Shown in pieces: positions 52,551 through 54,535 of a DNA stretch of 64,000 nucleotides. The stretch's first letter is position 1. Every line of letters begins with the position of its first letter. The DNA is from Lachnospiraceae bacterium 28-4 (GTDB lineage: Bacteria; Bacillota; Clostridia; Lachnospirales; Lachnospiraceae): contig KE159600.1 in assembly GCA_000403275.2 (NCBI GenBank), positions 579,708 to 643,707 of the forward strand. Reading direction: 5' to 3'. A program made the position numbers and the translations under genes. The notes below the pieces were generated by a model. It saw only the letters and a program-made list of their open reading frames with translations. It had not been told where the DNA came from and did not search any database.

Positions 52551-52694
52551 GTATGTTTCCTCCTTACAACTACATATTAACACGTATTTTACGTATAATC
52601 AAGATTTTTTTCCAGGGAACTGTTGAAAGATTCAGCCAAAACTTTCCATTTCTTAATTATTTAAATAACTGTTATGAATATGTTTTAACTATGG

Positions 52695-52780
52695 TATAAT
52701 AAGGAAGCGCACTGATGTGCGCGCAGGTCAGCAGCCTCGCGGCTGGTGACAAAGCATAATAAGGAAGCGCACTGATGTGC
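52695..52780 (+). repeat. Direct repeats with hairpins; possible small RNA
   Basis: ATAATAAGGAAGCGCACTGA plus TGTGC occurs at 52696-52720 and again 60 bp later (52756-52780). Each copy can form GCAC/GTGC around TGAT; the first extends to GCGCAC/GTGCGC. Between the copies GTCAGCAGCC pairs with GGCTGGTGAC around TCGC. A TATAAT (52695-52700) lies within the first copy, so a transcript could begin here. Confidence 0.6.
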
Positions 52781-52820
52781 ATATTAAGATAGGATATTTG
52801 TGAGAGCGATAAACTTGCTG

Positions 52821-52973
52821 AATATTCTGGCAATATGTTTTCTGAAAAGCTTTTTATGCCGCGGAATGGAAACCATAAAAACAGGAGGGTCTCTGCCCGA
52901 GTGTTTTTGCTTTCCTGGGTTCCATGAAGCGTCCGGCATAACTGCTTTTCAGAAAACATATTGCCAGAATATT
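52821..52973. repeat. 153-nt giant inverted repeat (30-bp perfect outer arms)
   Basis: AATATTCTGGCAATATGTTT begins a 30-bp arm (52821-52850) that is exactly inverted at 52944-52973. Inside, TTATGCCG/CGGCATAA (52854-52861, 52934-52941), TGGAAACC/GGGTTCCA with one mismatch and GGG/CCC around the tip continue the stem. No ORF. It lies 65 bp before the MBOAT gene. Could be a MITE, a regulatory RNA or an RNase III substrate. Confidence 0.8.
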
Positions 52974-53038
52974 CCCACAACCCCCTATCCCCTCACACCA
53001 CCCTATCCCCCACTACTACGAAAGGTACCACATAACCA

Positions 53039-54535
53039 ATGCTTTTTAACTCCTATATATTCATTTTCATCTTTCTTCCCGCCGTCCTCCTCGGATGGTA
53101 CGGACTGAATAAACTGCAAAAATATGAACTGGCAAAGGTTTTTTTGACCGGCATGTCCCTATGGTTCTACGGTTATTTTAATACTTATTACCTTTTCATC
53201 ATTATTGCCAGCATTCTTATTAATTATCTGATCAGCTACTTACTGACTTTTTGTAAAACCAGGCGCGCAAACCACTTCGGACTGTTCGCCGGCGTTGCCG
53301 CCAATCTGGCGATTCTTTTTTATTTTAAATACTATGACTTCTTCATTGAGAATATCAATTACGTTTTCCGGGCGGATTTTAATTTAAAGCATATTCTTCT
53401 GCCTCTGGGGATCAGTTTTTTTACTTTCCAGCAGCTATCCTTTATCATTGACCGGTGTACCGGAAAAACGGAGCATTATTCTTTTATCAATTACGCTGCT
53501 TTTGTCACCTTTTTTCCCCAGCTGATCGCCGGACCTATCGTTTTGTATAAGGAAATCATTCCCCAGTTCGATGACCTTTCCAGGAGAAATTTTGATATTG
53601 GCAGTTTTGCCAGAGGTATTTCTCTTTTTGTTATAGGGTTAAGTAAAAAGGTGCTTTTAGCCGACGTGCTTGCCCTCGTTACAAATTTCGGCTTTGAACA
53701 GACTTATTTTTTGGATTCGCCCTCCACTCTGCTCGTAATCCTGTCCTATACCTTTCAGATTTATTTTGATTTCAGCGGTTATAGTGATATGGCGATTGGA
53801 CTGGGATATATGTTTAATGTGCAGCTTCCGGTAAACTTTAATTCTCCTTATAAAGCATGTTCCGTAAAAGAATTGTGGCAGCGCTGGCATATGACCCTTT
53901 CCCGTTTTTTTGTCACCTATGTTTATATTCCGCTGGGAGGCAGCAAAAAAGGAAAGGCACGGACGATTTTAAATACAATGGTCATTTTTTCCTTAAGCGG
54001 CCTTTGGCATGGCGCTAACTGGACTTATGTAGCATGGGGCGTTATGCAGGGACTTTTGGTTGTTTGGGACAATCTGGGTATCATAGGGGTCAGGGGAAGT
54101 CAGGAAAAAAATCCTTCCCGTTTTTATATTCCAAGATGGCTGGGATGGCTTTTTACCTTTTCCTTTTTCAATTTATCCCTGTTTTTCTTCCGCAGCGAAA
54201 GTATGGCCCATGCTTTCCAAATGTTTAAAAACCTCTTTTCCTTCCGAAATACGGGATACATTCACAAGCTGGTTATAAATATGGATATTCCTGAATTTTA
54301 TATTTTTAAACAGGCCGTTACCATGTTCGCTCCGGAAATGCTTCCTGTTGCTTATATTATACTATTCCTGCTGATTCTGATCGCCAGTGCATTCATCCTG
54401 ACAAGAAAAAATGCGTTGCAGATCGTAGAAACGGCAGATTACGGTTCCGGATTCTGCTGGTTCATCGTTATCCTCTTTATCTGGTCGCTTATTTCCTTTT
54501 CACAAGTCAGTACATTTATTTATTTTAATTTTTAA
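53039..54535 (+). CDS. MBOAT O-acyltransferase (AlgI/DltB/PatA type)
   Basis: 498 residues, about ten membrane segments. Family marks: LPLGISFFTFQQLSFIIDRC, FVTFFPQLIAGPIVLYKEI, SGYSDMAIGLGYMF, RWHMTLSRFFVTYVYIPLGG and GLWHGANWTYVAWG with the active-site His. Transfers acyl groups across the membrane onto exported polysaccharide or wall polymer. Pairs with the next gene. Confidence 0.93.
   Translation: MLFNSYIFIFIFLPAVLLGWYGLNKLQKYELAKVFLTGMSLWFYGYFNTYYLFIIIASILINYLISYLLTFCKTRRANHFGLFAGVAANLAILFYFKYYDFFIENINYVFRADFNLKHILLPLGISFFTFQQLSFIIDRCTGKTEHYSFINYAAFVTFFPQLIAGPIVLYKEIIPQFDDLSRRNFDIGSFARGISLFVIGLSKKVLLADVLALVTNFGFEQTYFLDSPSTLLVILSYTFQIYFDFSGYSDMAIGLGYMFNVQLPVNFNSPYKACSVKELWQRWHMTLSRFFVTYVYIPLGGSKKGKARTILNTMVIFSLSGLWHGANWTYVAWGVMQGLLVVWDNLGIIGVRGSQEKNPSRFYIPRWLGWLFTFSFFNLSLFFFRSESMAHAFQMFKNLFSFRNTGYIHKLVINMDIPEFYIFKQAVTMFAPEMLPVAYIILFLLILIASAFILTRKNALQIVETADYGSGFCWFIVILFIWSLISFSQVSTFIYFNF

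Follow-up and report, generated by a model that had tools for sequence, protein, structure and literature searches.

Results

Organization of the locus

The window analysed here is a 64,000-nucleotide stretch of the Lachnospiraceae bacterium 28-4 genome (G000:C3:579708-643707; genome of 4.28 Mb in 7 contigs). The region of interest within it is flanked by hicA (PF07927), a HicB-like gene (PF15919) and, downstream at 53039-54535 on the + strand, the gene for an MBOAT O-acyltransferase (PF03062, E 3.4e-36). An earlier note on this DNA had described 52695-52973 as one structured region, in which hairpin repeats lead into a giant hairpin. The region is indeed structured (the RNA fold of 52690-52980 reaches -123.5 kcal/mol, z -9.4, with 0/200 shuffles as stable), but it holds two separate repeat families side by side, which we call repeat family A and element B, and element B runs past 52973 to 53005.

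Repeat family A (52696-52780, + strand) comprises two identical 25-nt repeats and two small hairpins. The repeats, ATAATAAGGAAGCGCACTGATGTGC at 52696-52720 and 52756-52780, confirm the 60-nt spacing noted before. They come right after a -10-like box, the extended -10 TGGTATAAT at 52692-52700, within a promoter-like block upstream of MBOAT (52651-52707, + strand) that is conserved at the orthologous locus of genome G004 with 98% identity over 57 nt. A generic promoter scan did not report this block, so that its reading as a promoter is one that we infer. Repeat A folds with a z of -2.2 on the + strand and -3.4 on the - strand. Terminator-like stems were reported solely within the family-A repeats, on the minus strand, and a terminator reading of element B was rejected on that ground. 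In several genomes of the genus, repeat A appears as a leader-like module right behind TATAAT-like boxes of different genes (around position 1501 of L003, L040, L042, L049 and L054); the first stem varies among these copies and the second hairpin is similar (AGGTCA-CAGCC..GGCTG-TGAC). Neither of the two copies tested against Rfam (L003, L040) gave a match.

Element B, read against its relatives, occupies 52790-53005 on the + strand (216 nt), with decayed ends, TAGGATATTTGTGAGAGC on the left and ..CCCTA on the right. Its left arm (52820-52850, + strand) starts with the self-complementary octamer GAATATTC (52820-52827), and its right arm (52944-52974, + strand) ends with the same octamer (52967-52974). 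The arms are 100% complementary over 31 nt, one more than first described, and enclose 93 nt; the giant hairpin is therefore present as reported, with a span of 155 nt in place of 153. As single-stranded DNA, 52820-52974 folds at -52.8 (z -14.5; 0/200 shuffles as stable). We agree that no known protein explains the hairpin, which is crossed by three listed, putative ORFs of 51, 102 and 102 aa. The 93 nt between the arms (52851-52943, + strand) form a conserved structured core, matched by a covariance model of the core, R2, at G000:C3:632558-632650 with 94.8 bits. The window gave 0 Rfam matches at gathering score, and searches of copies at permissive E-values returned sub-threshold matches only (e.g. 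MIR6217, MIR1858, MIR2118); with no match at the former level and no family at the latter, an Rfam identity for element B was rejected. An attC-like reading was set aside on motif grounds.

Copies and host range

The hairpin recurs in the genome and is therefore not a chance structure. Searched at the nucleotide level, the genome yielded eight more places with 70-80% identity over 100 nt or more, plus several short ones, and the matches listed for R1, a covariance model of the hairpin, place element B at no fewer than 18 distinct sites, window copy included. R1 was built from alignment A1, which holds 26 copies from this and related genomes (26 of 29 hairpin places, three partial ones being left out), and it matches 11 of 16 genomes of the genus, that of the window among them. 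Ten of the genus genomes, with 83 places, yielded 69 distinct cores; 54 of these make up alignment A4 and model R2, and most of the remaining 15 differ from them in the apical stem or have it shortened. In a sample of 397 family genomes (334 genera), R2 has a match in 23 (19 genera), the window's genome counted, and two or more matches in 16 of the 23. In a sample of the class it matches 3 of 391 genomes, all three in the same family. The true numbers of genomes may be higher, as no more than a few candidates per genome (10 in the family and class samples) were scored. The earlier note had proposed a search for other copies and held that their absence, together with the lack of a transcript and of sequence conservation in relatives, would refute its reading; two of these three conditions are contradicted, in that copies occur in the genome, the genus and the family, and their core is conserved.

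A 19-base core pattern matched at least 119 stretches in named genomes. Among the 80 matches listed, 59 are labelled Lachnospiraceae (the family itself, Roseburia, Coprococcus comes, Blautia, Lachnospira), and the rest are mostly labelled Clostridium, Eubacterium, Eubacteriales or just 'bacterium'. At two loci of genome G013, of the same genus, the two flanks tested show complete identity to a record named uncultured Lachnospiraceae. Single matches labelled Brevibacillus, Desulfobacula and Gastranaerophilales showed no R2 core match. One record bears the label Alistipes, a genus from another phylum than the remaining hosts, and two of its cores score 83.2 and 81.5 bits with R2 (L288, L292); they may stem from a mislabelled assembly, from transfer or from a real exception, and either that label or the restriction to the family may be wrong. 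One viral contig (L385) also bears the 19-base pattern. Runs of N, that is assembly gaps, lie at the centres of three elements (L358, L359, L360), and many contigs of genome G014 start close to an element end. Gaps of this kind at element centres may be one reason why the family escaped notice.

Ends, target duplications and hairpin-free forms

Ends of the form TAGGYAATTGCGAAA and target duplications of 11 bp are seen in better-preserved relatives. Of 43 end pairs, a few of them probably spurious or entered twice, 14 agree in at least 8 of the 11 flank bases, compared with 5 of 2000 mixed flanks; in some of the remaining pairs the flanks match, by eye, after a shift of 1-2 bases. The length is 213-216 nt in 16 of the 43 pairs, and the same landmarks give 216 nt for the window element. 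With its decayed ends, the window copy itself escaped the end-pair scan, which tolerated 3 substitutions, and no target duplication can be recognised at it. A MITE had been among the candidates first put forward, with target duplications as a check. Scattered copies, and relatives in better condition with terminal inverted repeats and duplications, uphold that candidate, although the duplications are seen in the relatives and not at the window copy.

First-type ends, TAGGYAATTGCGAAA, number 97 in G014, 145 in G215 and 85 in G430, where the reversed pattern has 0 or 1 matches, and 0 in G135. A second end type, ATTCGGGTGTCAAAAG, holds related cores in G013 and other genomes. Among the places listed there was no transposase and no long autonomous copy, and none of the end pairs listed, all from genomes other than G215 and G430, enclosed a transposase gene.

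Forms without the hairpin exist as well. Five elements of 63 nt carry a single GAATATTC where the hairpin would be expected. The orthologue of the window locus in the sister species G004, identified by the 57-nt block and the MBOAT gene, has neither repeat A nor hairpin and shows end-like sequence around a single GGATATTC; the hairpin was either lost in G004 or gained at the window locus. Four elements (L358, L360, L371, L377) have the same ends and another middle (TGATTCTGCAC.. or its complement), with a length of 67 nt or, where the centre is unsequenced, of ~367 nt.

Covariation of the core

Pairing is retained across copies far beyond shuffled controls. In A1, which covers the whole hairpin, 97.3% of cells are paired against 86.9% after shuffling, with two-sided changes in 37 of 55 pairs. 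In A4, aligned with MAFFT, the figures are 97.1% and 78.0%; 23 of 24 pairs changed on both sides, giving 295 two-sided cells against 78.6 in shuffles, and the number of further pair types is unremarkable (93/500 shuffles reach it). Two more alignments, which count all model matches and are fitted to the model, agree: all R2 matches (100 distinct rows) are 97.3% paired against 74.5% shuffled, with 23 of 24 pairs changed on both sides, and the cores from named records (76 distinct rows) are 97.5% paired against 84.6%, with two-sided changes in 19 of 24 pairs, the apical helix of this last set being unable to vary because its members were picked by a fixed apical 19-mer. Sliding the partner by 1-3 columns abolished the pairing signal in all four alignments.

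Unpaired G and A columns of the + strand are near invariant in A4 (G15, A53 and G64 in 54/54; A17, A24, G81 and A83 in 53/54). Among the pairs of 173 unique cores, 3866 cells are Watson-Crick, 50 are G-U and 24 are A-C; this excess of G-U over A-C weakly favours the + strand as the folded one. The G-U share is low beside RNA families in general. Judged from these alignments, the core is evolving like a folded nucleic acid.

Divergence and matching of the arms

The arms behave differently from the core. The 30 nt adjoining the core were compared under a penalty for end gaps, and medians are given. Arms in the genome of the window are 0.97 identical within a copy and 0.70 between copies, a contrast that comes in part from mixed element subtypes. 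Across 21 genomes of 18 genera, arms of different genomes reach 0.50, which is also the value for shuffled arms, and arms within a copy reach 0.87, whereas the cores are 0.66 alike against 0.54 when shuffled. A more lenient identity with free end gaps, by which shuffled cores score 0.68 and real cores 0.72, puts the arms of the window's genome at 1.00 within a copy and at 0.76-0.79 between copies. The within-copy match exceeds the between-copy identity in G000, G014, G271 and G003; it is little above it in G002 (0.90 versus 0.83), close to it in G430 (two copies) and below it in G013 (0.80 versus 0.90). Arm homogenisation is thus not uniform across genomes.

Copies at the same locus in different genomes allow arm changes to be followed in place. 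In eight orthologous or partly orthologous pairs, one of which (L271/L240) is matched on one flank only, 560 base pairs were compared on structures obtained by folding the first member. There are 15 two-sided changes, a count that takes in those keeping pairing and not those losing it, and 23 one-sided changes that keep pairing and 23 that break it. Fewer than 3 two-sided changes would be expected by hand estimate from independent change at the observed rates, and we conclude that the arms change together in place. Arm mismatches comprise 178 G-U and 217 A-C beside 6512 Watson-Crick pairs; since G-U does not exceed A-C, no RNA strand is favoured in the arms. The copy in G146 (L210, 1501-1591) has 107-nt arms with zero mismatches; the set in which it was measured contains 171 of 188 copies, 17 with less than 60 nt of flank being left out, and at least four of its loci are one place entered twice.

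Orientation and gene context

The element is reversed between the members of one pair of orthologous loci (L212 and L213, about 1501-1596), the flanks of which are 97-98% identical; this difference is seen between species. One copy in the window's genome (L018/L123) has, by our reading of the sequence, a core flipped relative to the element ends. A phase-variable element, the third of the candidates first put forward, is a possible reading of these two cases, neither of which concerns the window locus. All 10 close core pairs found (less than 800 nt apart) are head to head with their 5' sides facing (L119, L121, L122, L128, L204, L215, L216, L226, L244, L275).

A first count of gene context in 83 copies gave an antisense ratio of 43:8. 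Under other gene-calling rules, with duplicates removed by flank, this became 37:19 and 18:11 in two sets, and the strong bias of the first count was abandoned. Relative to co-directional neighbours, the ratios are 34:14 or 40:15 in the first set and 20:10 or 15:11 in the second, depending on the ORF cut-off. We regard the antisense bias as moderate; it is not significant in the second set. A bias in GC skew is confined to one set (20 positive versus 56 negative) and absent in the other (25:35) and in the window's genome (8:10). Recurrent neighbours of the copies are transporter families, regulator families and spurious ORFs, with no transposase among the 14 largest neighbour-gene clusters. 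The suggestion of an RNA that regulates genes of surface acylation is unsupported as it was put, in that the copies adjoin many different genes.

Discussion

Our data make it likely that element B is a transposable element of the non-autonomous kind, in which selection maintains a folded core and template switching homogenises the arms. The stretch 52790-53005 would be one member of a family of such elements in Lachnospiraceae-type bacteria, and a full member would have three layers: short terminal inverted repeats, fast-changing arms that match one another, and a folded core of ~93 nt that includes conserved non-Watson-Crick positions. The ends are presumably recognised in trans by a transposase. 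In resident copies, the arms are most likely kept matching by replication template switching between the inverted repeats, which, according to PMC8604942, leads to arm homogenisation and spacer inversion; a single process could in this way account for both footprints seen among the copies. By itself, template switching would be expected to wipe out the conserved mismatches in the core, so that two processes are needed, the second being selection on the folded strand. The core is probably selected as a folded single strand, RNA or single-stranded DNA, and probably as the + strand, which the pairing counts weakly support. At the window locus, element B has MBOAT on one side and, on the other, family-A repeats at a likely promoter; it is therefore probably part of the MBOAT mRNA leader, and it might have some effect on MBOAT.

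Alternatively, element B could be a conserved structured RNA family, either a cis-acting leader or an sRNA, that has spread, its arms being kept matching by selection on RNA pairing alone. Such an RNA would be expected to look much as the core does, with strong covariation, conserved purine-rich internal loops on the + strand and more G-U than A-C pairs. The arms do not follow suit, as their mismatches favour no RNA strand; copies are also somewhat more often antisense to co-directional neighbours, and the ends and target duplications show DNA transposition. We consider this explanation possible and, on balance, doubtful.

Another proposal, which we judge unlikely, is that element B is an ordinary MITE that spread recently and whose arms match merely because they are its long terminal inverted repeats. 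It accommodates the ends, the target duplications and the internal-deletion forms, and the copies of G013 fit it, those of G002 nearly so. Recent spread would not explain why arms in the window's genome match better within than between copies, or why the arms of orthologous copies have changed in step where they stand; compensatory changes in the cores, and related cores between two different end types, are likewise at odds with it.

Arms that are near perfect in each copy and different between copies could also arise by fold-back synthesis, in which mobilisation passes through a hairpin single strand and the 3' arm is re-copied from the 5' arm, each new copy being perfect. The arm mismatches, which lack a clear strand bias, are compatible with this route, but it concerns new copies, and orthologous copies change their arms in coupled fashion in place; the places and gene neighbourhoods listed also showed no hairpin-using transposase, and we hold this route to be improbable. 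Least probable of all is an inverton-like regulatory switch in which the 93-nt centre flips between the arms. The long inverted repeats of the arms, the inverted pair L212/L213 and the flipped core of L018/L123 would agree with it, yet a consensus scan found no promoter-like site in 52851-52943 and there are many copies per genome, beside different genes.

Element B is a structured repeat found in gut bacteria and unmatched in Rfam, and our results suggest that mobile repeats of its structured kind have not been described before. The literature searched, with most subscription papers outside its reach, held no description of it. Its arms, divergent between copies and matched within each, offer many natural replicates for measuring homogenisation by template switching.

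Bacterial MITEs of the RUP, Correia and ERIC type are short, non-coding, multi-copy elements with inverted ends, target duplications, hairpin potential and internal-deletion forms. Element B shares with them its size, its non-coding nature, its copies, ends, target duplications and hairpin, and its internal-deletion forms. It is non-coding, multi-copy and dispersed, and it has terminal inverted repeats and target-site duplications in its relatives, the window copy not being among the 43 end pairs; as far as tested, it fits the description of a MITE in everything other than a proven autonomous partner. Unlike MITEs, it has a folded core that is common to elements with different ends, and arms that covary within a copy; its target duplications are 11 bp, and in the two genome samples searched it occurs in one bacterial family only. 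REP and BIME elements are dispersed intergenic palindromes. Element B is likewise a dispersed intergenic palindrome, but it is longer and has target duplications.

Mutation by template switching at quasipalindromes, as PMC8604942 and PMC7202029 describe it, leaves the same two footprints, arm homogenisation and spacer inversion. It is a mutational process rather than an element, however, and leaves the conservation of the core unexplained.

A further parallel is TwoAYGGAY (Rfam RF01731), which a table in PMC2864571 marks as 'probably' an RNA. It too is a conserved core within long matching arms, and dispersed. There are 37 matches in the genome of the window and none in the window itself, and the arms of the 13 examined extend 29-150 nt beyond the model match. 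By eye, the matches include four head-to-head pairs, and TwoAYGGAY cores were noted at L372, L373, L374, L375, L120, L125, L129, L123, L154, L134 and L135. The two cores differ, that of TwoAYGGAY having two hairpins. TwoAYGGAY adjoins copies of element B at seven loci, where its matches lie beside, never on, the core of element B. It occurs in 16 of 32 genomes with element B and 5 of 25 without, and the two are therefore not obligately linked. The comparison shows the TwoAYGGAY motif anew, as a repeated core within long palindromes. More tentatively, and with no great confidence, we propose that the core of element B is a functional module, a folded RNA or single-stranded DNA, that is carried by transposon ends of two or more kinds and accepts arms of any sequence provided that they match, and that together with TwoAYGGAY it represents a 'hairpin cargo' class in Lachnospiraceae. 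If so, the elements of this class would be recognised by structure and not by sequence.
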